Below, piece after piece: positions 3,374 through 59,876 of a stretch of 64,000 nucleotides of DNA. A program made the translations under genes and the position numbers. The notes below the pieces were generated by a model that saw nothing but the letters and a program-made list of their open reading frames with translations, searched no databases and was not told the DNA's origin. Source of the DNA: a candidate division KSB1 bacterium (GTDB lineage: Bacteria > Zhuqueibacterota > Zhuqueibacteria > Residuimicrobiales > Krinioviventaceae); NCBI GenBank assembly GCA_034521575.1, contig JAXHMJ010000001.1, positions 124,001 to 188,000 on the forward strand. Reading direction: 5' to 3'. Each line of letters begins with the position of its first letter. Within the stretch, counting starts at the first letter, position 1.

Positions 3374-4701
3374 TCATAGACTGTCTGTGTTACCCTTCAG
3401 TATAATTTTTCCGCCTGTTGTCACAATTTTGGCTGCAAAATCAATCATGATCCGACGAAAGGTATTGGGGTAAGCGGTAACTGGCACTGCTTCACAGGGG
3501 ATGTCCCTTTTATATGCTTCAAAAAGAAAATGGCTAATGATCATCAAATAGTAAAAAACTCTATTCATACCGAAACGCTTAAATGGTAACTGTTCTCTTC
3601 CAGCAAATTCTTTCTGTGATCGGTGTACTAATTCAGCTCTACCTCGACTGTGGTTTAACTCGATAATCTTTTCGGCCTTGAGATAATTGCCACTACCAGC
3701 ATTGATTAGTTTTTCATCCAGCTCACTGTTTCGGCCTATATTGGTATAGATTACTGAATCCGGTTGTGCAAAATCAAATAAGAGTTGACCATTTTCCTCA
3801 GCTTTCTGCGAGGTAAAAATACAACGGCGAAATGTCTTCCATGATTTGAGGCGATTAGCAAATTCGACAAAAGTCCATGTCTGTCTATAAGAACGAAAAG
3901 CATCATAACTAAGATTGTTAACATATTGTTTAATATCGTTATATATTTTCCCGGCACAAACATAATGAATACCAAGGCGTTGTTCAAAGAACCGAAAGTT
4001 CTGGTCATCCATAAAACCACTGTCTGTTAGCAGAATGATTGGAACATCTTTATAGCGACGTCGAATAGCTTTGACCAGACGCCCCACTGACTTTATAAAG
4101 TCGCTGCCATGATTACAATGAACATCTCCGGCTCGGAACAGCGCATCAACAACATAAGGCCCCCAACTAATTTGCATAGGCTGGAATCCTTTTTTATTTT
4201 TATAGGTCACATTTGAGCCTTCACGCTTTTTAGCGCCGTCATTGTCGAAAACTACGCTGTCACCAAAAGAATAACTTCTTTGGGTTGTTCAATAATAAGT
4301 CGCCAAATAAACATCTCCAACAAAAGAGACCGAAATATCATTTGCCCAACAAAACTGAACTTGCGAAACATCCTTTTGATTTGATGGGATGTTGCCATTT
4401 GTTCCGGGCGATTTTCGAGCACTGCAGCATAGGCTTCATCGTTTTTTCGACGATCAAAAGAACAGATTGACATATCCGTACCATCAATAAACCAAGCAAA
4501 AAGCTGTTTGACAAACTGACGGTATCCCAGTCCTTTAGAAGAGCCTTTTAAAAAGCTAAAAACGTTTTCAAATAGAGAATAGAATCGAATTTGGTCAATA
4601 TATCTAAGAAAAAACAACAGACCACCACGACCGCTAATTTTATCTTTTGTGATCTCAATTTTTGATATTTTAGGTTGCGTTGTATCGGTTTTTTTCTGCA
4701 T
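3374..4701 (-). pseudogene. IS1380-family transposase, frameshifted
   Basis: Two minus-strand frames, 4701-4252 and 4210-3374, together make a full DDE transposase of about 440 residues. The first ends ...IIEQPKEVILLVTA; the second frame resumes as GDSVVFDNDGAKKREGSNV then TYKNKKGFQPMQISWGP, both typical of IS1380 (PF13701) proteins. The break lies in the run ATTCTTTTGGTGAC near 4255 (one T short). IS1380 members use a single frame and there is no known programmed shift, so this is a mutation or sequencing error. The second frame contains the LLTDSGF acidic motif and the conserved C-terminal RFGMNRVFYYL region. Confidence 0.85.
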
Positions 4702-4800
4702 ATTATGGCTACCTTTTGGGTTTTGTTGTTATTCTTTTTATTGGTTACACAACTAAAATAATAACAAACTATTATAAACCCAAAAAGGTTTTTTATTTTT

Positions 4801-4821
4801 TTAAAAACCGCTCAATTTAGG
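4801..4821 (-). repeat. IS1380 right terminal inverted repeat
   Basis: Inverted partner of 3095-3115, immediately followed by TATAA (4822-4826), the second copy of the target duplication. Confidence 0.85.
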
Positions 4822-4847
4822 TATAAATTAAAATTATAGGCATTGTT

Positions 4848-5621
4848 ATGGTTATTTATAATAATAAAATTGAAAAAATCAATGTGATTCTGGTGTCTTT
4901 GTTTATTTGGATGTCATGTGATAATCCGGTTAGCAATGATAAAGTCGATGAGGTAAAATTCCCGGACCCCGTCGTTGAAAAAACCGTGCGGGATGTAATC
5001 GATAAACCAACCGGGATAATTGAAAAAACTGACGTGGAAAACATCAGATCATTGGTTATAGGAGCGCAAGCAGAAAATTTAGAGGGTATTCAGTATTGCA
5101 GTGGATTGGTTGATCTGACAGCCAGAAATTGTAAAGTAAGCGATTTAACTCCGATTGAAAATTTAGTAAAGCTCAAATACCTGGATCTGGAATATAATCT
5201 GATTAAAAATATAAAACCATTACAAAATTTAGTACACTTGAAAAAGTTGTTTTTATCATATAATAGAATTATTGATATTTCATCCATTATAAATTTGGAT
5301 ACGCTTGAAATAGTGACACTATCTTGTAATCAAATTGATAGTCTGCCAAATTTAAAAAATATGCGGCATTTGAGAAATGTGTTCTTTGATTTCAATAATA
5401 TATCTACCATGGAACCGTTTTTGGAATTATCGAGCATTGAAAATATAGCCATATCCCATAATAGAATTATCGATTTAACAATACTTTATAACGCAAGCTG
5501 GTTAACGGCGCAAAGGAATATTTATATTCATCTCAAGTCCAATCCTTTGGATGAAAACAGTATTAATAACATTATTCCGGATTTAAAAGATAGATATGAT
5601 GTGCGTATTTATTATCAGTAA
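4848..5621 (+). CDS. Leucine-rich-repeat lipoprotein
   Basis: 257 residues. The N-terminus has a basic stretch, a hydrophobic core (INVILVSLFI) and a lipobox WMSC with Cys24, so it is probably lipid-anchored. From about residue 60 to 220 there are six or seven 22-residue internalin-type leucine-rich repeats (pattern LxxLxxLxLxxNxIxxIxPLxNL, for example LKYLDLEYNLIKNI and LKKLFLSYNRIIDI). Such repeats bind proteins or peptides. The gene starts 27 bp after the insertion sequence; before that insertion it would have followed gene B1 closely, perhaps in the same transcript. The region is markedly A+T rich compared with flanking housekeeping genes, which fits acquired DNA. Confidence 0.8.
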   Translation: MVIYNNKIEKINVILVSLFIWMSCDNPVSNDKVDEVKFPDPVVEKTVRDVIDKPTGIIEKTDVENIRSLVIGAQAENLEGIQYCSGLVDLTARNCKVSDLTPIENLVKLKYLDLEYNLIKNIKPLQNLVHLKKLFLSYNRIIDISSIINLDTLEIVTLSCNQIDSLPNLKNMRHLRNVFFDFNNISTMEPFLELSSIENIAISHNRIIDLTILYNASWLTAQRNIYIHLKSNPLDENSINNIIPDLKDRYDVRIYYQ

Positions 5622-5680
5622 TGGTTGCTTAAATCATAGGATTTTATATCAATGATTAATAAAAAAAAATTAATTTTTTA

Positions 5681-5709
5681 TTGACAATAAAGTTTTTTTT
5701 ATTTAATTT
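5681..5709 (+). promoter_or_regulatory. Sigma-70-like promoter of cassette copy 2
   Basis: TTGACA (5681-5686), 17-bp spacer, TAATTT (5704-5709), at the same position relative to the leader as in copy 1. Confidence 0.65.
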
Positions 5710-5715
5710 TCTCCA

Positions 5716-6121
5716 AGGGAGTTAAGAGAGGGAAATTCTAACTATTATGGGGGTTTTATAATCTTTTTTTGTTACCAAAAAGAAAATACTTGTTCATTTG
5801 AAAAACTGTATCTTTTTGATATGGCGGTCACTCATGCGCCGACAGTTTGAATCCATAAAGGTGAGTTGATTCCGGTCCTGTCAAGGCCGGCAGCCGGGGT
5901 TGATCCGGGATGTGGGCGGATTAAAGCGTCTAAAAAAATGATTTCACAATCTGAGCGGGTTTTTTCCCCGGGGTAAACGTCATAGAATAAAAAGCGGGGA
6001 TACCGGTTGTGAAATTTCTGATCCAAAAACAAACATCATCAATAAACAGGGAGGACCATATGAAAACATGATTCTTTAACCCATCTCAAACAAAATAACC
6101 CGTTTTAGAAAGGAGACCCTT
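5716..6121 (+). promoter_or_regulatory. Long conserved 5' leader, copy 2
   Basis: Counterpart of 1892-2292. After a more variable start (5716-5790) about 320 nt agree with copy 1 except for a handful of substitutions and a 4-base gap. The pairing GATTTCACA (5940-5948) with TGTGAAATT (6008-6016) and the mini-frame ATG AAA ACA TGA (6060-6071) behind GGGAGGA are both kept. This is stronger conservation than in the neighbouring coding sequence, pointing to a functional RNA, to recent duplication, or to gene conversion. No gene is seen between 5622 and 6121. Confidence 0.5.
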
Positions 6122-49412: not shown

Positions 49413-50753
49413 ATGCCTTTTATTCCCAATTCTGATCAGGATCGTCACGATATGCTGAAAGCGATCGGTGTCGAAACATTCAGTGATTTGATCCGGATGA
49501 TTCCGGATGATGCTTTGTTTGAGGGTGAACTGGATTTACCCGAACCGTTGAATGAACTTGAAGTGAGACGCACCCTGGATGCGCTTTCTCGTGAAAATGA
49601 GAACTGTGACGATCATATCTGCTTTTTGGGGGGCGGCGCTTATGATCATTATGTTCCTGCGGCGGTTAAACATATCATTCAGCGATCTGAGTTTTATACG
49701 GCCTACACTCCTTATCAGCCTGAGGTCAGTCAGGGTACTTTGCAGTCCATTTATGAATATCAAACCATGATCTGCGAATTGACCGGCATGGATGTGGCGA
49801 ATGCCTCTATGTATGACGGGGGTTCGGCTCTGGCTGAAGCCGCTCTTCTCGCCTGCGCTACGACGCGAAGAAATACGATCCTGGTTTCCGCTACTGTGAA
49901 TCCGAATTATGTGGAAATCATTAAAACCTATTGTCACGGCCGTGGAATCAATGTGGTGACCTTGCCCCGCGATAATCATGCGGTTTTTTTGCAAACACTT
50001 GAGAAACAAATAAATGACCGGACCGCAGCGGTCATTTTTCAGCACCCGAACTATCTTGGATATTTTGAACCCGTTGAAGAGATTGCGCGTCTGACAAAAG
50101 AATCCGGAGCCCTGCTCATTTCTTCGAATGATCCCATTTCTCTAACTGTTTTGCGGCCGCCCGCTGATTACGGGGTGGATATTGCCACGGGTGAAGGACA
50201 GGCTCTGGGAAATCCGCTCAGTTACGGCGGCCCCTATCTTGGAATTTTTGCCTCTGACAAGAAATTTGTACGCAAAATTCCCGGGCGCATTGTCGGTAAA
50301 ACTGTGGATAAAAACGGACAGCCGGGTTTTGTGCTTACATTACAGACCCGGGAACAGCATATTCGGCGGGAAAAAGCGACCTCCAATATCTGTACAAATC
50401 AGGGGTTAAATGCGTTGGCGGCAACAGTTTATATGGCCTTGATGGGAAAACAGGGTCTGCCGGAAGTTGCAACGCAATGTCTGCAAAAAAGCCACTATCT
50501 TGCGGGAGAGATTTCAAAATTGGATGGATTTGGCATTAAATTTGATGCTCCATTTTTCAAAGAGTTTGTGGTCCAGACCTCTCATCCCGTGGACAAGGTC
50601 ATGCAGGTCTGCCGGGAAAATAAAGTGTTTGCCGGAATACCCCTGAAGAATTATGACGATAATCTGAGTGACTGTTTTTTATGTGCCGTAACGGAAAAAC
50701 GGACAAAAAAGGAAATGGATGCGTTTATTAATATTCTTCGGGAACTTTTGTGA
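49413..50753 (+). CDS. gcvPA: Glycine dehydrogenase (decarboxylating) subunit 1
   Basis: 446 residues: MPFIPNSDQDRHDMLKAIG start, FLGGGAYDHYVPAAVKHI, YTPYQPEVSQGTLQSIYEYQ, GMDVANASMYDGGSALAEA and REQHIRREKATSNICTNQ. This is the split-type P protein; the PLP lysine sits on subunit 2 (GcvPB), whose gene does not follow here. gcvT is also absent, so the complex must be completed from other loci. Confidence 0.95.
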   Translation: MPFIPNSDQDRHDMLKAIGVETFSDLIRMIPDDALFEGELDLPEPLNELEVRRTLDALSRENENCDDHICFLGGGAYDHYVPAAVKHIIQRSEFYTAYTPYQPEVSQGTLQSIYEYQTMICELTGMDVANASMYDGGSALAEAALLACATTRRNTILVSATVNPNYVEIIKTYCHGRGINVVTLPRDNHAVFLQTLEKQINDRTAAVIFQHPNYLGYFEPVEEIARLTKESGALLISSNDPISLTVLRPPADYGVDIATGEGQALGNPLSYGGPYLGIFASDKKFVRKIPGRIVGKTVDKNGQPGFVLTLQTREQHIRREKATSNICTNQGLNALAATVYMALMGKQGLPEVATQCLQKSHYLAGEISKLDGFGIKFDAPFFKEFVVQTSHPVDKVMQVCRENKVFAGIPLKNYDDNLSDCFLCAVTEKRTKKEMDAFINILRELL

Positions 50754-50997: not shown

Positions 50998-51037
50998 GTT
51001 TTAGGAAACAATGAAAATTATTCATAGGAGGAAGATG

Positions 51038-52129
51038 ATGAATACGAGATTTATCCTGCTAATTGCAGTCCTGATCGTTGCGGTATCCGCGGGACAGGTG
51101 TTTGCGGTGAGTGATGCCGCCGTTCTCTCATTGATGATTTCTCCCGGCGCACGCGCCGCGGGAATGGGAGAGGCGTTTGTGGCGGTCGCCAATGATGCAA
51201 CAGCGCCGTTCTGGAACCCCGCCGGATTGGCCAATATTAAGAACAAGGAACTGCATTTTATGCATTCCAAGTGGCTGCCCAATCTGGCCGATGATCTGTT
51301 TTATGATTTTGCTTCTTTTGTCTATCCCATGCAGGATATCGGAACGTTTGGCGTCAATGTCACGTTTCTGAATCTGGGTGAACAAATTCATACGGATGAA
51401 ACCGGCAATCAGCTTGGAACTTTTAACAGTAACGAGTACTCGATTGCCGCGACGTATGGCACCAAATTGTCGCAGGACTGGGCAGTCGGCCTGGGGCTGC
51501 GTTATATTCGCTCAAATCTTTCCAGTGTCAGCGTCGGTGCTGAACAGGGCGACGGAATCGGTAATGCCTTTGCGTTTGATCTGGCGACCATGTACACCCT
51601 GCCGTTTCATCGCAAACTGACATTGGGTATGAATTTGTCGAATATGGGCCCTAAAATTACCTATGTTGACGCCGCACAGGCCGATCCGCTTCCCACAAAT
51701 CTCAAACTTGGTTTTGCTTACAATGTTGTTGAAAGCGAATACAACAAGCTGACCGTGGTGGGTGATCTGAATAAAATGATGGTGACCCGAGACAACGATG
51801 GATCCGCGGACCCGTTTTACCAGGCATTGTTCACATCACCCTGGATGGTTGAAGAGACCACGACCACAGAAAATGATGACGGAGAAGAGGTTACGAGCAC
51901 TGAAAAAATGTTCAACGGAACTGTGAGTGGCGGACTCGAATACTGGTACAGCGGTATTTTTGCTCTGCGCGCCGGTTATTACTGGGATCAACCCGGTGAA
52001 GTCGAGTTTTTCTCCTTTGGCGGCGGTGTTCAGTATCATCTGTATCGGTTTGATTTTGCCTACGTGGCGGCGGACGAAGGACATCCGTTGGCCAACACCA
52101 TGCGCTTTTCATTGACCATCGGTGTATAG
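51038..52129 (+). CDS. PorV-family outer-membrane protein
   Basis: 363 residues from ATG 51038, six bases after AGGAGG; signal peptide to about residue 23 (GQVFA). The mature start LSLMISPGARAAGMGEAFVAVANDATAPFWNPAG is the mark of PorV/UPF0164 proteins, FadL-like barrels; PorV is the type IX shuttle that carries cargo to the attachment complex. The two sorting-domain proteins in this window make that role sensible. Many paralogues exist per genome, so this one may serve a single cargo, perhaps the next gene's product. Confidence 0.88.
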   Translation: MNTRFILLIAVLIVAVSAGQVFAVSDAAVLSLMISPGARAAGMGEAFVAVANDATAPFWNPAGLANIKNKELHFMHSKWLPNLADDLFYDFASFVYPMQDIGTFGVNVTFLNLGEQIHTDETGNQLGTFNSNEYSIAATYGTKLSQDWAVGLGLRYIRSNLSSVSVGAEQGDGIGNAFAFDLATMYTLPFHRKLTLGMNLSNMGPKITYVDAAQADPLPTNLKLGFAYNVVESEYNKLTVVGDLNKMMVTRDNDGSADPFYQALFTSPWMVEETTTTENDDGEEVTSTEKMFNGTVSGGLEYWYSGIFALRAGYYWDQPGEVEFFSFGGGVQYHLYRFDFAYVAADEGHPLANTMRFSLTIGV

Positions 52130-52199: not shown

Positions 52200-55100
52200 A
52201 TGGTTATATCCAGAATACAACGACTGGTTTTTTTTCTACTGATTCCGGTATGGCTTTTTGCAGCAGAGTCTTATCCATTCAAAAAAAATGCCCACCGCCT
52301 TACCCAAACGGATCCCCTTGGGACCATTCAAAGATTTCTTCAGCAGGATCAATCGTCGCAGCATCGGGATACTTTGAAAATTATGGCGCTGCGCGCCGAG
52401 TTTGTTGAGGATAATCTGGCAACAACCACGGGAAACGGTAAATTCGATCTGTCCGATACCTCCGGTTACCAGATAGACCGGCCTCCGCACAACCGGACGT
52501 ATTTTTTGCACCAATTAATGGCGCTAAAGAATTATTTTAAAACCGTGTCCAACGGTAATCTGATTTTGGAATATAAGGTCTGGCCGTCCGGTGAAACGGA
52601 CGCCTATCCGCTTCCGGAGAATATGGTTTACTATAGCGGCGAGGAAGATACCACCAAACAGAAGATTCGCTGGTGTGAACTGGTGCGCGATGCCGTTGCG
52701 GAAGCCGAGCGGCAGGATGCCCCCGATTTTTCCGCTTATGATGTGTTTCTCATATTCCATGCCGGAGTCGGAGCGGATATTCCGTTTGATTTCGATACCG
52801 ACACCGTACGACATTCAATCCGCGTTTGTCGATTTTGAAACATTCCGGAAAGACGTTCCGGTGACAATGCACCCGGTTATCAGGGGGTGCCTGCAGGAGA
52901 TACGTTTGTCAAAGAAGCGATTATTCTGCCGGAAACCCAGAATCAGGAAGACCAGAATCTGGGGCTTCTCGGAACCATGACCCTGTTGATGGGCAGCCAG
53001 ATCGGTATGCCCAGTCTGTTCAATACCGAAACCGGCCGCGCCGGCGTCGGAAGGTGGGGGCTGATGGATCAGGGGTCGTTCAATTATAACGGTCTGATCC
53101 CGGCTCATCCCTGCGCCTGGACCAAACTGTATATGGGGTGGGAAGAGCCCGTCGTGGCCAACGCTATCGACGAAATCGAGATCGGTTCATTTTCCACACA
53201 GGCCGATCACCTGATAAAGATACCCATATCCTCCAGAGAATATTTTCTTCTGGAAAATCGTCAGCGCGATCCCAATAACGACCGTCTGAGTTTCGGGCGC
53301 GATGAACAGGGACGCCGCGCCCAGTTTGATTCCACGTTCTCAATTGCTGTAGAATCCGGACTGGGTGTGATTACACGTGTTGATGAATACGATTTTGCGC
53401 TTCCGGGGTCGGGGATTCTGATCTGGCACATCGATGAACGTGTCATCGAAGAGAATCTTGCCTCCAATACGATCAATAATGATATCGATCACCGCGGCGT
53501 GGATCTCGTAGAGTGTGACGGTCCCCAGGATATCGGTCAGCGGTACGGGATGTTCACACCGGGTTACGGAACCGAATCCGGTGATTATTGGGACCCCTAT
53601 TGGGATGACAATATCTCGCATAAATATGTAAATGGTGAAAAACCCGTCGAGTTTTCATCGACCAGTATCCCGAGCAGCAATGCTTATGGACAGGCCAGAA
53701 CGTTTATCCGCATCTCTGAATTCAGTTCCCGGGATACCCTGATGACCTGCCGGATTTCCAATGATCTGCATGTGCCCGGATTTCCGCAGTACGCCGATTC
53801 GCCGTTTGGGCCGGGCGCGCTTCGATGGCTGAATGATCGTGCCGAATCCGGAAACGGCGTCATTTCCGCTGTGTCCCGCGACGGCAAGATTTACGCCTGG
53901 AACCGTGACGGCAAACTGATTGACAATGACGAATCTGCAACGTTCACCGATTATACCGGCCGTTCCCGTACGCTTCCCGTGGCCCTGGCCGCTGATCTCC
54001 AGGATTCGCTAAATGTTGCGCCTCTGTCTTTTGATTATGACGCTGACGGATTTGAGGACCTGGTCCTCCTGTCCCGTTCCGGTCATGTGACCGTGTGGTC
54101 TTTGAACGACCGGGATGACGACGGAATAGCGGATACACTTGCTGCTGTAAAATTGGATCATGTTCCAACGTCCGCTGTAATCTCGGGGGATAAACTCCTG
54201 GTTGGCACTCTTTCCGGTGCAGTGTACTGGATCAACCTGTCTTTTAATTTAACGGTTGAACACATAATCAATGTATGCAGCGAACCGATTTCTCACTGTC
54301 ATGTGGTGACCGCTGAAAATACGGCTGTTTTTACATCCACAGCCGGACAGATATATGCCTATCAAATGAATTCGAGTCCGCCCGAACCGGCATGGCAGTC
54401 TCCCCTGGCCGGAAACGGCGATGCGTTTTACAGTGTCTCTGTGCGTGAAAAGAACGGACAGTTGTCATTGCCGTTGGCGGTTCTCTCCAATGACGGTGCA
54501 TTAACCCTCATCGACAGCCAGGGCAATGTTTACAAAAAAACCGAGCCGAATATTGCATTTACCAACAACAGTCCGCCTGCATTGAGTGATCTGGATGCCG
54601 ACTCGATTCCGGAAATCATTTTTGCGGACGCCCGGCATCTGGGCGCTTATGACTGGACCACAGGGGTGCCGGTGATGAATTTCCCCAAAACCTTTTCTCA
54701 GGAAAATCCCGGCGGTTATGCTCCGTCTCCGGTGTGCCTGAAAAACGGCTTGATTGTACTGGCTACCTCGAACGGACTTTTACGCGTGTTTGATTCAAAA
54801 GGGGAACAACGGAAGATTCAGCCGCTGCAAGGTCCTCTGACTGCCGGCGGTCCTTTGCGCACGGAACCGGTGCTTGCCGGAAATGTGTTTGATGAGACTG
54901 TATTGTTCGCACTCTCTGAGGATGGATTTTTAAACGCCTACGGACTGTCTGATATGCCGGCGACCTGGGCTCAGTACGGCGGAAATGCAAAAAATCAGTT
55001 TTCCATGTATTTTGAGACATCCGCAAACCCGGCCCCGGAAGACAAAAATATTTTAAGTAAAGCCTTTTGCTATCCGAATCCGGCGCGAGGTTCGGAAACC

Positions 55101-55328
55101 TTTATCCGCTTTCGGCTGCAGAAGCGGGCGGAACAGGTCAGTCTGAGAATTTATGATATTGCCGGCGATCTGTTAACGGAAATCCAGCAGGTCGAAGCCG
55201 CAGCCGGTGATAATGAAATACGCTGGGAGCTGGATCAGGTGCAAAGTGGCGCTTATATTGCCAGACTGCAGGTAGACAGTTCGACCGAAACCCGAGTAAA
55301 GTTTATTAAAATTGCTGTGATCAAATGA
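52200..55328 (+). CDS. M6-like secreted protein with propeller and type IX sorting domain, two frameshifts
   Basis: About 1040 residues. Signal peptide (LVFFLLIPVWLFAAE); an M6 (immune inhibitor A-like) region with YFLHQLMALKNYFKTVSNG and YDVFLIFHAGVGADI; frame shifts near 52810 and 52875 (YDIQSAFVDFETFRK lies in one frame, APGYQGVPAGDTFVKEAIIL in the next); then MPSLFNTETGRAGVGRWGLM. Where true M6 peptidases have HEFGHxLGLPD this has LLMGSQIGMPS, so the zinc site is lost. A beta-propeller of FG-GAP type (about 545-880) and a C-terminal sorting domain (CYPNPARGSETFIRFRL to FIKIAVIK) follow. Probably a surface or secreted binding protein. Its stop overlaps the next start (ATGA). Confidence 0.82.
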
Positions 55329-58327
55329 GAGATATACGGAATTTATTAATAACGTTCTTTGGATGTATTTCGCTGCTTGCCGCTCAGACCGATTATCATC
55401 ACCCGGAACTGGACTGGTATACGCTCGAAACAGAACATTTTCAGATTCACTATCACCAGGGGGCTGAGCGCACAGCCCGGGTCGTGGCTAAAATCGCTCA
55501 GGATATTTACGATCCCGTTACAGATTTGTACGATTGGGAACCCGACGGACCGGTGCATTTTATCATCAAAGACCATGATGATATCTCCAATGGTGCGGCG
55601 TATTATTATGACAATAAAGTCGAGATATGGGCGCCGCAAATGACATTCATCCTGCGGGGGACGCATAATTGGCTGCGCAATGTGGTCACCCATGAATTCA
55701 GCCATATGATCTCACTCGGCGCCGCGCGTAAAATGTCCAGGCATGTTCCTGCTTTTTATTTTCAATGGATCAATTATGAAAAAGAAAAGCGTCCGGATGT
55801 GCTGTACGGCTATCCCAATGAAATAGCTTCATATGCCGTGGCAAACACGATCATCCCGATGTGGCTGGCCGAGGGCATGGCGCAGTACATGGCTCCGGAT
55901 CTGGATTACGACCGCTGGGACACCCACCGCGATATGCTGATTCGAACAGCGGTTCTGGACAGCAGTCTGCACTCTTTCACTGAAATGGGTGTGTTTGGCA
56001 AAAACAGTATCGGCAATGAACGCACCTATAATGCCGGATACGCGCTCACCCGCTATATCGCTCATCATTTTGGTCCGGAATCCATGCAACAGCTCACGGA
56101 TCATTTGAATGATCCGCTGACTTTTTCAGTGAACGCGCCGATCAATAAAGTGACGGGTCTGGATGCTGACGAATTGTATAAACAATGGCATCAGCATCTC
56201 ATCCGATATTATCAACATGCGACGGATTCCCTGCGAAATCATACAGTGGCCGGCGAAAAACTGGTAAACAAGGGGATTGGAAACATTGCACCCGTCTGGT
56301 CTCCGGACGGCCGTCAAATTGCCTATTGCGGTTCTCCGGGCTCGGATTATCTGACCCTGACGAGCCTGAAGGTTATGTCTTTGCAGGATAATAAAACGCA
56401 TGTTTTGAAATCCGCTGTTAACAGTAAATTGTCCTGGTCGCCGGACAGCTCGCGCCTGCTTTACGCCCGCAAAGAGGCCAATAAACATCATTCTCATTAT
56501 AATGATCTGTATGTGTATAATCTCGAGACAAAAAAAGAAATCCAGCTGACCCGGGATCTGCGGGTGATGGATCCGGTCTGGATGCCGGATGGAAAAAGAA
56601 TGCTTGCCGTACAGCAGGCAGACGGAACGGATAATCTGGTATTGATTGGTGAATCCGGTAAAATCGAAAAAAGACTGACAAACTACCGCTTTGGCCAGGG
56701 TGTATACGGTCCCTCTGTGTCTGCTGACGGACGTTATGTTGTGTTTTCCCGTTCCCGCAGCCACGGCCGCAATCTGTTGTTATACGATTTCGATACAGAA
56801 ATTCTGGATACGCTTATTTCCGAGGGGGATGCCCGCGATCCGTTTTACACCGATGACGGACGCATATTTTTTTCCTGGGATCGCTCCGGGATCGCCGATA
56901 TTTACAGCATCAAACCGGATCAGGACGATCTGAACTTGAAACAATGGACCCGGGTTCTCGGCGGCGCGTTTATGCCCGCGTACCATGATTCGGCCGGGCT
57001 GGCGTTTTCACTGTTTGATTCAAAAGGCTACAAGATATCGGTCATCCGTCATCCGGAGCCGCTGAACAACCAGAACGCCTATCAACCCGATCCTGAAATC
57101 GCTCCGGAATTATGGCTTGATATCGACAGCTCCCGTCTTGCGGACGTCAGACATTATGACGATACTCAGCTCCCGGATATGGAAGCGCAAAAATACGGCA
57201 TCACCTATGGCGATTTGATGTTTATGCCCCGTGTTATGATTGATTCCAATCAGGTTAAACTGGGTACATATTTTTACGCCAACGAGATACTGGATCGATT
57301 GAATGTGTTCGGCGGCGTCGGTATGAATGCGCGCAAAGACCTGGATGCGTTTTTGATGTTTGAATGGAAAAAATGGCGCCCCACTTTGTTTACAGAGTTT
57401 TATGCGGTCACCCGAAATGTCGAACGTACTATTGCCGTTATCGAGGATTATCCCAAAAAAGTGCCGGTTGATATCTCGTTCCGTCTGCTGGAAGGGGATA
57501 TCGGCGCCCGCTATCAAATTACCGATCATCAGACTTTGCAGGCCGCCTATGTACACAGCCAGTATATGAGTCATATTCATAGTTTCTTTTTTGAACCGCA
57601 GGGTATCCAGTTTGAATCACCGGCCAATACTTATTTTTATGGCAATCATTTGCGGCTGAACTGGGATATTGATCAAAAACCCCCGTCGGTTACTTCGTCC
57701 ATCAGTCCGTCCGCCGGACGCCAAATCAATGTCGAGTATTCTTTTGAATGGAATCGGTTCTTTGAGGATTTTTCAACCGAAGACGAAGGTGTTCTGCCCA
57801 AACGTATTTATACAAACTATAACTATAACAAGATACAAGTGGCATGGCACGAGTACCTGGGTATTCCGTTTTTGCGCGACCATAGTTTGAACGCTTCATT
57901 CAAAGCCGGTTATATCGATCGGCCGGTGGATAGTTTTTTTAATTTTTATGCTGGCGGTTTGCCGGGTTTGCGCGGTTATCCGTTTTACAGCATTGAAGGC
58001 CGGAAAATGTTCATCGCCCGTTTCAATTACCGTCTGCCATTGTTTACACGCTGGCAAAAACAGTTTTTTCATCTGACCACCAATCATGCCTATCTTACGG
58101 CGTTCATGGATGTGGGTGATGCCTTTGACCGCGATGCATTCGATGTGTCTGAATTGAAAAAAGATGTCGGACTCGGCCTGAGACTGTCACTGTTTTCGTT
58201 TTACGGATTCCCGACGGCCCTGTCTGTAGAAGCCGCTTATGGCCTGGATACTGTTTATAACCAGGATCTGGCCTATGGCAATGAATGGCGTTATTATGTC
58301 ACACTATTGTTTGATTTTATGAATTAA
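55325..58327 (+). CDS. Outer-membrane fusion: gluzincin metallopeptidase, TolB-type propeller, Omp85-like barrel
   Basis: 1000 residues. Signal peptide (1-20). Residues 25-290 form a gluzincin peptidase: HEFSH (His123, Glu124, His127) and third ligand Glu183 in MWLAEGMAQYM. Residues about 305-600 hold TolB-type repeats (IAPVWSPDGRQIAYCG, KLSWSPDSSRLLYARK, VWMPDGKRMLAV, GPSVSADGRYVVFSRS). Residues about 640-1000 form a barrel of the BamA/surface-antigen type, with GGLPGLRGYPFYSIEGRKMF and a final Phe-Met-Asn. No POTRA domains. The barrel could anchor, or export, the peptidase-propeller part. All zinc ligands are present. Overlaps the previous gene by 4 nt. Confidence 0.8.
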   Translation: MRDIRNLLITFFGCISLLAAQTDYHHPELDWYTLETEHFQIHYHQGAERTARVVAKIAQDIYDPVTDLYDWEPDGPVHFIIKDHDDISNGAAYYYDNKVEIWAPQMTFILRGTHNWLRNVVTHEFSHMISLGAARKMSRHVPAFYFQWINYEKEKRPDVLYGYPNEIASYAVANTIIPMWLAEGMAQYMAPDLDYDRWDTHRDMLIRTAVLDSSLHSFTEMGVFGKNSIGNERTYNAGYALTRYIAHHFGPESMQQLTDHLNDPLTFSVNAPINKVTGLDADELYKQWHQHLIRYYQHATDSLRNHTVAGEKLVNKGIGNIAPVWSPDGRQIAYCGSPGSDYLTLTSLKVMSLQDNKTHVLKSAVNSKLSWSPDSSRLLYARKEANKHHSHYNDLYVYNLETKKEIQLTRDLRVMDPVWMPDGKRMLAVQQADGTDNLVLIGESGKIEKRLTNYRFGQGVYGPSVSADGRYVVFSRSRSHGRNLLLYDFDTEILDTLISEGDARDPFYTDDGRIFFSWDRSGIADIYSIKPDQDDLNLKQWTRVLGGAFMPAYHDSAGLAFSLFDSKGYKISVIRHPEPLNNQNAYQPDPEIAPELWLDIDSSRLADVRHYDDTQLPDMEAQKYGITYGDLMFMPRVMIDSNQVKLGTYFYANEILDRLNVFGGVGMNARKDLDAFLMFEWKKWRPTLFTEFYAVTRNVERTIAVIEDYPKKVPVDISFRLLEGDIGARYQITDHQTLQAAYVHSQYMSHIHSFFFEPQGIQFESPANTYFYGNHLRLNWDIDQKPPSVTSSISPSAGRQINVEYSFEWNRFFEDFSTEDEGVLPKRIYTNYNYNKIQVAWHEYLGIPFLRDHSLNASFKAGYIDRPVDSFFNFYAGGLPGLRGYPFYSIEGRKMFIARFNYRLPLFTRWQKQFFHLTTNHAYLTAFMDVGDAFDRDAFDVSELKKDVGLGLRLSLFSFYGFPTALSVEAAYGLDTVYNQDLAYGNEWRYYVTLLFDFMN

Positions 58328-58350: not shown

Positions 58351-59148
58351 GTGAGGATTTTCAGCTTTTTGATTCTAATTTGTTTAACAGCCGGCTCATT
58401 GTCTGCGTCAGGCTTGGAAAATTATATGCGCGAAACCACCATGCCGCCGGTTCAGCTGTCACAGACCGATGCGTCTGAACATGCAGGCCTGAAAAATGTC
58501 AAGGCCGCTCTGTTCATGTCGGCAGCCCTGCCCGGCGCCGGTCAGGCCTATGCGGGAAACTGGCTGAAAGCTGCTCTTTTTGCGGCTGTGGAAGCGACGG
58601 GCTGGACCCTGTATGCGGTTTACAATGAAAAGGGTAAAGATATCCGCTCCGAATTCCACAGCTATGCGCATACCCATTGGAGCGAATCCTCGTACTGGAA
58701 ATGGGTGGCGCATCAGGCCGGACTGGAATACAACGCTGATGATTTGACGGATTTGCGCGAGTGGGAGCATGAACATTTCAGTCACGGACTGCATGAACAG
58801 AAAGATCAACAGTACTATGAGATGATCGGAAAATACCATCAGTTCAATTACGGTTGGGATGATTTCAGAAACGAATATTCGATAACGATGACCCACCAGG
58901 AATTGAACAATATCGAAACCGAAAACCGTCACACCTATGAATCAAAACGCAATGATGCGAACCAGGCGTTCCGCACCGCCACATCCAGCGTGACGGTTGT
59001 CATGCTCAACCATATTCTCAGCGCCGCGGATGCGGCCTGGACCGCGTATTCCTTTAATAATCGGAGCGCGACACTGTCTCTCAAGGCCGAACCCCTGTAT
59101 TTTGATCAGGATTTACAAACTGTACTGTCTTTACGTGTAAATTGGTGA
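58351..59148 (+). CDS. DUF5683-like membrane protein 1
   Basis: 265 residues from GTG 58351 after TTGGAGGAA. Signal peptide (1-19), then KAALFMSAALPGAGQAYAGN, the G-x-GQ-x-Y motif and paired hydrophobic stretch of DUF5683, a charged middle rich in His/Trp/Tyr (about 85-190) and a C-terminal helix pair (VVMLNHILSAADAAWTAY). Function unknown. The neighbour at 59154 has the same plan, so the two are likely partners from an old duplication; both follow the peptidase-barrel gene in one operon. Confidence 0.72.
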   Translation: MRIFSFLILICLTAGSLSASGLENYMRETTMPPVQLSQTDASEHAGLKNVKAALFMSAALPGAGQAYAGNWLKAALFAAVEATGWTLYAVYNEKGKDIRSEFHSYAHTHWSESSYWKWVAHQAGLEYNADDLTDLREWEHEHFSHGLHEQKDQQYYEMIGKYHQFNYGWDDFRNEYSITMTHQELNNIETENRHTYESKRNDANQAFRTATSSVTVVMLNHILSAADAAWTAYSFNNRSATLSLKAEPLYFDQDLQTVLSLRVNW

Positions 59149-59153
59149 ACTCT

Positions 59154-59876
59154 ATGCGAATTTTATTATTGTCTCTAACGTTATTTTGCTCACTTGCAGC
59201 TGCTCAAACATCGCATCTTGCGGATGAATGGTACCAGACCTCTCCATCGTTCACCGGCCTGCAGACGATGCAGTCCGAATCCCCCGGCGCTGCGCTGCAG
59301 CCTGAAAAAAACAGGGGCAAGGCGTTTTTCATGTCTTTGCTGGTTCCGGGATGGGGACAGCGGTATACAGAATCGCGTAACAAGATGCTGGCTTTTTTCG
59401 CTGCCGAGATCGGTCTGTGGATGACCTGTTCCGGTTTTGAACTGTACAGCGACTGGCGGCGCCAGGATTACCGCGCCTATGCCGCCCGCTATGCTGATGT
59501 CGATCTTGATGGTAAATCCGACAGTTACTTTATCGATGTCGGGAATTTTAACACTATTCATGATTATAACGCATACAAACTGCAGTGGCGTCAGCTCGCT
59601 GAATATTACGATGATGTTGATGCCAATTACTGGAACTGGCAGAGTAAAGAGCATCGTGAAGAATTTGATGATTTACGCATTTCTTCGGATACTGCTCATA
59701 ACCGCGCAACCATGATGCTCGGTTTTATCATGGCCAATCATGTCATCAGTGCGGTTGATGCGCTGATCTCCGCCAGCAGACACCATAATCAACAGACGGT
59801 TCTGGACTGGAACCTGTTTCTGGGCGACGGTTATTATACGCCGCGTGTTCATTTCACCTTGACTAAACACTGGTGA
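59154..59876 (+). CDS. DUF5683-like membrane protein 2
   Basis: 240 residues from ATG 59154 (GTG 59145, overlapping the previous stop, is an alternative). Signal peptide (LLLSLTLFCSLAAA), AFFMSLLVPGWGQRYTESRN with the same G-x-GQ-x-Y motif as its neighbour, a Tyr/Asp-rich middle with DVDLDGKSDSY, which looks like a calcium-type acidic loop, and FIMANHVISAVDALISA near the end. Same domain plan as the gene before. Function unknown. Confidence 0.72.
   Translation: MRILLLSLTLFCSLAAAQTSHLADEWYQTSPSFTGLQTMQSESPGAALQPEKNRGKAFFMSLLVPGWGQRYTESRNKMLAFFAAEIGLWMTCSGFELYSDWRRQDYRAYAARYADVDLDGKSDSYFIDVGNFNTIHDYNAYKLQWRQLAEYYDDVDANYWNWQSKEHREEFDDLRISSDTAHNRATMMLGFIMANHVISAVDALISASRHHNQQTVLDWNLFLGDGYYTPRVHFTLTKHW

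Follow-up and report, generated by a model that had tools for sequence, protein, structure and literature searches.

A predicted protease, TolB-like propeller and Omp85 barrel joined in one protein of candidate division KSB1 bacteria and encoded in a cassette with PorV

Here, we report a gene from a candidate division KSB1 bacterium of the phylum Zhuqueibacterota whose single product, judging from its sequence, unites three parts: a zinc protease that seems to be active, a propeller of the TolB-like kind and an outer-membrane barrel of BamA type. The gene is referred to as the protease-Omp85 gene. It lies in a stretch of 64,000 nucleotides (the window; assembly GCA_034521575.1, contig JAXHMJ010000001.1, positions 124,001 to 188,000) and belongs to a cassette that recurs through the phylum, together with the genes for PorV, an outer-membrane shuttle of the type IX secretion system (T9SS), and for an M6-like inactivated metalloprotease (M6i). 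A first-pass annotation of the window had placed the protease, the propeller and the Omp85-like barrel in one chain, and this arrangement is confirmed by Pfam, NCBIfam and profile matches and by conserved residues. The conservation of the protein and the composition of the cassette suggest a membrane-anchored protease or an assembly factor and not a self-exporting enzyme.

Domain architecture and conservation

Among 82 genomes from the phylum, counting the source genome, 77 contained an ortholog, whole or as a fragment, and 52 orthologs were extracted and aligned; the locus L047 was removed as a duplicate of L004. Alignment A1 holds 50 of these sequences, without L065 and L083 and their long starts, and alignment A4 holds 27. 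The first-pass annotation had described a complete gluzincin site made up of HEFSH and Glu183, and this was borne out in that H123, E124, H127 and E183 are the same in every aligned ortholog, giving all 52 the HExxH motif and downstream glutamate that characterise the gluzincins (Peptidase MA). The family Peptidase_MA_2 was matched above its Pfam cut-off (E 5.6e-9) over residues 175-292 only, a range that takes in Glu183 and leaves out HEFSH. In a 1045-residue paralog of the same architecture found in the source genome (L085, 5936-9073), the match to this family spans 63-264, the HExxH motif included (E 9.1e-12). Both HExxH and WxxEGxA were retained in nine of nine paralogs examined, a non-random sample chosen from the listed matches to the protease-Omp85 protein. 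The constancy of the catalytic residues among orthologs and of the motifs among paralogs indicates that the protease is under selection.

The propeller gave strong matches to PD40 (E 2.9e-20 in the Pfam scan) and to the NCBIfam TolB model TIGR02800 (E 2e-27, below the equivalog cut-off of that model), and the A1 ortholog profile matched the TolB structure 4r40 with an E-value of 6.1e-33. PD40-type motifs were located near residues 326, 372, 420, 466, 509 and 555, the last one being degenerate, and these six motifs support the six predicted blades of the original description.

The C-terminal part is very probably a barrel on the strength of its sequence profiles. In the Pfam scan of the protein, Omp85 (PF01103) reached 22.0 bits, slightly short of its cut-off of 24; the genome search gave 24 bits at the same place, flagged as above the cut-off. 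The 27 ortholog barrels of A4 aligned to nine paralog barrels (A6) over 335 columns with an hhalign probability of 99.7% and an E-value of 5.4e-26. The paralog barrels in turn matched BamA structures with an E-value of 7.6e-6 for the sequence as a whole and 0.012 for the best single stretch, and the match of the ortholog barrels to TamA (E 7.7e-4) was confined to some 110 residues surrounding the RGY motif. The paralog L085 carries Peptidase_MA_2, PD40 (E 8.9e-22) and Omp85 (positions 23-325 of 325, E 2e-17) all above their Pfam cut-offs, and its match to the BamA model TIGR03303 (E 2.5e-13) reaches the last position of that model while staying far under the equivalog cut-off. Among the other paralogs scanned, Omp85 was above the cut-off in L091, weak in L086 and not listed for L088, L089 and L090. 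The gene next to L085, at 4653-5924, resembles by eye that of a GWxTD-domain protein.

The motif GGxxGx[R/K]GY occurs in 51 of 52 orthologs, with R in 38 of them. Its RG[F/Y] element, which stands as GGLPGLRGY in the window, we take to be the L6 motif of the Omp85 superfamily, so that both a C-terminal barrel, as seen by sequence profile, and the loop motif of this superfamily are present. The BamA-type barrel with an RGY motif proposed at first reading is thereby upheld, as is the lack of POTRA domains, since no such family appeared at E<=1 in the Pfam scan; the protein in this respect departs from BamA and TamA, which have at least one. Against the 16 strands expected of an Omp85 barrel, a count gave 18 amphipathic segments, of which at least two are doubtful, by a home-made score that also picks segments in the other two domains.

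The cassette and its link to type IX secretion

In the 52 loci, the window included, the gene order PorV - M6i - protease-Omp85 - DUF5683 - DUF5683 was found on one strand wherever the flank suffices (Table 1). M6i was adjacent in 51 of 51 loci with at least 600 bases upstream (50 by script and L083 from the locus listing), and PorV, which is FadL-like, was present in all 46 loci with 4.5 kb upstream. Downstream, a DUF5683 gene was found in 51/51 loci with 500 bases of sequence, and both DUF5683 genes in 47/47 with 1.5 kb. The gap between M6i and the protease-Omp85 gene has a median of 11.5 bases (50 loci) and exceeds 300 bases in eight. The stop-start coupling noted by the first-pass annotation is real in the window, where the two genes overlap by four bases (ATGA), and is not general, being seen in 8 of 50 loci. 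In genus g43 (G080 and G081; L149 90-431, L076) M6i and the protease-Omp85 gene are more than 1 kb apart, and in G080 a weak PorV-like match sits between them. Many loci of the phylum have a glycine dehydrogenase (GcvPB-like) gene on the upstream side of the cassette, at 49413-50753 in the window.

Table 1. Features of the protease-Omp85 gene and its cassette (positions in the window)
Feature	Positions	Strand	Basis
PorV-like T9SS outer-membrane shuttle gene	51011..52129	+	PorV_fam 4.3e-91; T9SS_OM_PorV 247 bits against a cut-off of 250
M6i, M6-like inactivated metalloprotease with T9SS type A sorting tail	52200..55328	+	NF052323, Por_Secre_tail; start 52200 chosen by us
Protease-Omp85 gene (gluzincin-propeller-Omp85)	55325..58327	+	ATG start, 1000 aa
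Likely Sec signal peptide, about residues 1-20, without clear lipobox	55325..55384	+	Read by eye
Predicted gluzincin (Peptidase MA-like) domain, about residues 22-311	55388..56257	+	Peptidase_MA_2 5.6e-9; alignment A5 with paralogs
HEFSH zinc motif, residues 123-127	55691..55705	+	H123/E124/H127 in 52/52 orthologs; HExxH in 9/9 paralogs
Glu183 in WLAEGMA, predicted third zinc ligand	55871..55873	+	Kept in 52/52 orthologs
Predicted TolB-like propeller, six PD40-type repeats, about residues 312-600	56258..57124	+	PD40, TIGR02800 and 4r40 profile matches
Predicted Omp85-type barrel, about residues 612-1000	57158..58324	+	Pfam and profile-profile matches
GGLPGLRGY motif (Omp85 loop L6 'RGY'), residues 877-885	57953..57979	+	G877, G878, G881, G884 and Y885 in 52/52
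DUF5683 protein a	58351..59148	+	PF18935 1.3e-9
DUF5683 protein b	59142..59876	+	PF18935 2.4e-7

M6i matches the NCBIfam model NF052323 T9SSA_dep_M6i ('T9SS-dependent M6-like inactivated metalloprotease') and ends in a T9SS type A tail; at E<=1e-40 this model found a match in 75 of the 82 genomes, above its cut-off in 26, and HExxH was found in none of 47 full-length copies. The M6i frame in the window is broken near 52.80-52.89 kb (52836-52887), with a stop at 52836-52838. Among the matches listed, only the M6i of the source genome has an internal stop, and SprA in this genome is likewise split between two open frames (G000:C5:126661-131855), which makes assembly error the likely cause; a real lesion is the less probable explanation. 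Besides M6i, 52 more stretches of the source genome match the M6i model in its C-terminal part, corresponding to many T9SS type A tails, and a few of them are in stop-bearing frames.

Of the T9SS components, SprA and PorU models were matched in all 82 genomes, above the cut-off in 80 and 73, respectively. A role of the protease-Omp85 protein as a replacement for PorU was considered and is rejected by this universal PorU match. With the T9SS PorV model, 77/82 genomes yielded a single match each at E<=1e-45, and 26 of these matches were above the cut-off. PorV lies within 10 kb of the protease-Omp85 gene in 60 of the 73 genomes having both, and in the other 13 the contig on the PorV side stops at most 1.9 kb past its last cassette gene. 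In the source genome the cassette PorV is the best of 25 PorV-family matches; 18 of these 25 stretches were flagged above the cut-off. As described in part of PMC12618676, PorV recognises type A tails in Flavobacterium johnsoniae.

Five genomes of the phylum had paralog-level matches only, and are included in the raw tally of 82 of 82 genomes with a match. Contigs stop inside M6i in G036, G029 and G070, and G023 is 70% complete. In G017 (87% complete) the gene is absent from a contig that continues past the site: PorV is directly followed by a DUF5683 gene (L136 8188-10137), a second DUF5683 gene was not seen there, no M6i was found in this genome at E<=1e-40, and its matches to the protease-Omp85 protein are all at the level of paralogs. 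This joint absence is one event in one genome. Pairwise distances likewise associate the two genes, in that M6i and protease-Omp85 had the highest correlation in the cassette (0.784; partial 0.685) for 45 loci with all five genes at full length. Since this figure is partly an effect of gene length, the comparison was repeated with all genes trimmed to 223 columns, where the partial correlation of the pair (0.42 +/- 0.07) remained above any other value involving either gene. Related genomes do not give independent distances, and such correlations amount to support and not to proof. Gene order, joint absence and covariation suggest that M6i and the protease-Omp85 gene form a sub-unit within the cassette. 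The link between the two, from which the first-pass annotation suggested that the pair may act together, is supported by the adjacency in every one of 51 loci, the joint absence in G017 and the strongest partial distance correlation.

Outside the cassette survey, a scan of genome contigs for close relatives returned 13 pattern-bearing stretches and one relative, L004, from a candidate division KSB1 bacterium (52% identity), and two scans of viral contigs returned no relatives. A plasmid search gave 17 records, none covering 80% of the query. The best plasmid match was a Salinibacter protein annotated as 'basic secretory protein-like' (L122 3000-4901), with PD40 repeats, a protease-like region just below the Pfam cut-off and no barrel match.

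Relation to known Omp85 fusions

The family PF00149, presumably that of the metallophosphoesterases, is different from Peptidase_MA_2. It defines the 'Omp85-metalloprotease' subfamily in the relevant part of the 2014 in silico survey by Heinz and Lithgow (PMC4104836). The protease-Omp85 protein is like the WD40-Omp85 (propeller-Omp85) subfamily described in the same survey, in which an N-terminal TolB-like propeller is joined to an Omp85 barrel with no POTRA domains, an arrangement that the protease-Omp85 protein shares. The main text of PMC4104836 has no word beginning with 'peptidase', and its passages on WD40-Omp85 proteins contain no T9SS cassette. NCBIfam T9SSA_dep_M6i covers the neighbouring gene only. 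No description of the gluzincin-propeller-Omp85 order or of the PorV-M6i cassette was found among the open-licence PubMed Central (PMC) papers searched, judged by title and start of abstract; propeller-Omp85 proteins were known in silico from the 2014 work, and neither the protease domain nor the T9SS cassette turned up in these papers.

Other systems share parts of the design. The patatin-Omp85 protein PlpD is likewise a single chain in which an enzyme domain precedes an Omp85 barrel; it differs in being a phospholipase with a POTRA domain, and no propeller is mentioned for it in the passages of PMC11116518 that describe it. BepA, an M48 metalloprotease of Escherichia coli, is periplasmic and acts in both maturation and degradation of LptD, as told in part of PMC8423444. 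The resemblance is one of function only, as a periplasmic metalloprotease in outer-membrane protein assembly; BepA is a separate protein, and its profile match had an E-value of 0.4. In the F. johnsoniae barrel assembly machinery (BAM), an Omp85 barrel is partnered with a FadL-family barrel, BamG, and with large surface subunits; there, according to parts of PMC12611786, BamA has POTRA domains and BamG is not PorV. The words 'peptidase' and 'propeller' do not occur in the main text of that paper.

Possible roles at the outer membrane

Our tentative reading, which falls a little short of being probable, is that the protein serves as a periplasmic zinc protease and docking platform, anchored in the outer membrane, and works together with M6i. 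A Sec signal peptide would take the protein to the periplasm and BAM would insert its C-terminal barrel, while the protease and the propeller would remain beneath the outer membrane. The patatin domain of PlpD, once thought to be exported, was found by experiment to be exclusively periplasmic, as reported in part of PMC11116518, and by analogy the protease and propeller of the present protein would lie on the periplasmic side, with the barrel as their tether. The propeller may dock partners or clients, and the protease could clip misassembled outer-membrane or T9SS-linked clients, or mature one of them, much as BepA does with LptD at the BAM complex. M6i, itself a T9SS cargo and catalytically dead, would be a dedicated partner in the role of client, cap or regulator.

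Several observations weigh against this reading. At equal length the partial correlation of M6i and the protease-Omp85 gene equals that of PorV and DUF5683 protein b (0.415), and the raw correlation of the pair (0.59) is lower than those of PorV and the DUF5683 genes among themselves (0.61-0.69). G017 has kept SprA and PorU without M6i and the protease-Omp85 gene, which suggests that the T9SS can persist without the pair. No solved metalloprotease was matched significantly by profile, BepA being the best, so that the protease fold rests on Pfam and motif. AlphaFold models, each made from a two-sequence alignment, had mean confidence (pLDDT) values of 36 for the full length and 28 for the barrel, too low to use.

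It is possible, though rather unlikely, that the protein is instead a TamA- or BamA-like factor which assembles or inserts a subset of outer-membrane proteins, with a BamB-like propeller, a protease for accessory quality control, and PorV, SprA or other T9SS barrels as clients. The Omp85 barrel with its L6-type motif and the adjacency of PorV are consistent with such a factor, and in the relevant part of PMC4104836 assembly is taken as the default role and WD40-Omp85 proteins are likened to a BamA-BamB fusion. The missing POTRA domains argue against it, as does the fact that the genome has 12 PF01103 matches, among which the protease-Omp85 gene is the weakest; moreover, PlpD, in the account of PMC11116518 that bears on it, is an Omp85 barrel carrying an enzyme with no shown role in assembly.

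More doubtful is a structural function, in which the N-terminal domain would bind zinc or peptide without cleaving protein and the whole would be a TolB/Pal-like envelope linker between outer membrane and periplasm. The TolB-like propeller is indeed the strongest domain match and the protease domain lacks a significant match to any solved protease, but the general base Glu124 and the three predicted ligands are constant in all 52 orthologs, which would be unusual for a purely structural domain. Least credible is a type Vd-like protein whose protease and propeller would reach the cell surface through its own barrel, an extension of the older view of patatin-Omp85 proteins discussed in parts of PMC4104836 and PMC11116518, for the PlpD domain is periplasmic, a propeller and a protease of about 290 residues are bulky folded domains, and T9SS genes are present for surface delivery while Pfam and NCBIfam gave no match in the protein to Por_Secre_tail, the C-terminal sorting domain of T9SS cargo. 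The first-pass annotation had spoken of a self-anchoring or self-exporting protease; anchoring follows naturally for an N-terminal domain covalently joined to a barrel, and nothing found here favours export.

On a broader and speculative view, which we consider unlikely, the protein would belong to an outer-membrane machine fed by the T9SS, in this phylum and perhaps in neighbouring ones. A protease like BepA, a BamB/TolB-like propeller and a barrel like BamA would be fused in one chain next to the FadL-family barrel PorV, and the T9SS would deliver the dead protease M6i to the surface as external subunit, by analogy with BamA-BamG-BamH of Bacteroidota. The present analysis places a predicted protease within an Omp85 protein and ties it across the phylum to the T9SS shuttle PorV and to a dedicated pseudoprotease. 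If the reading as an anchored periplasmic protease is right, the protein would be a further enzyme-on-Omp85 scaffold beside PlpD, and one conserved operon would link outer-membrane quality control or assembly with type IX secretion.

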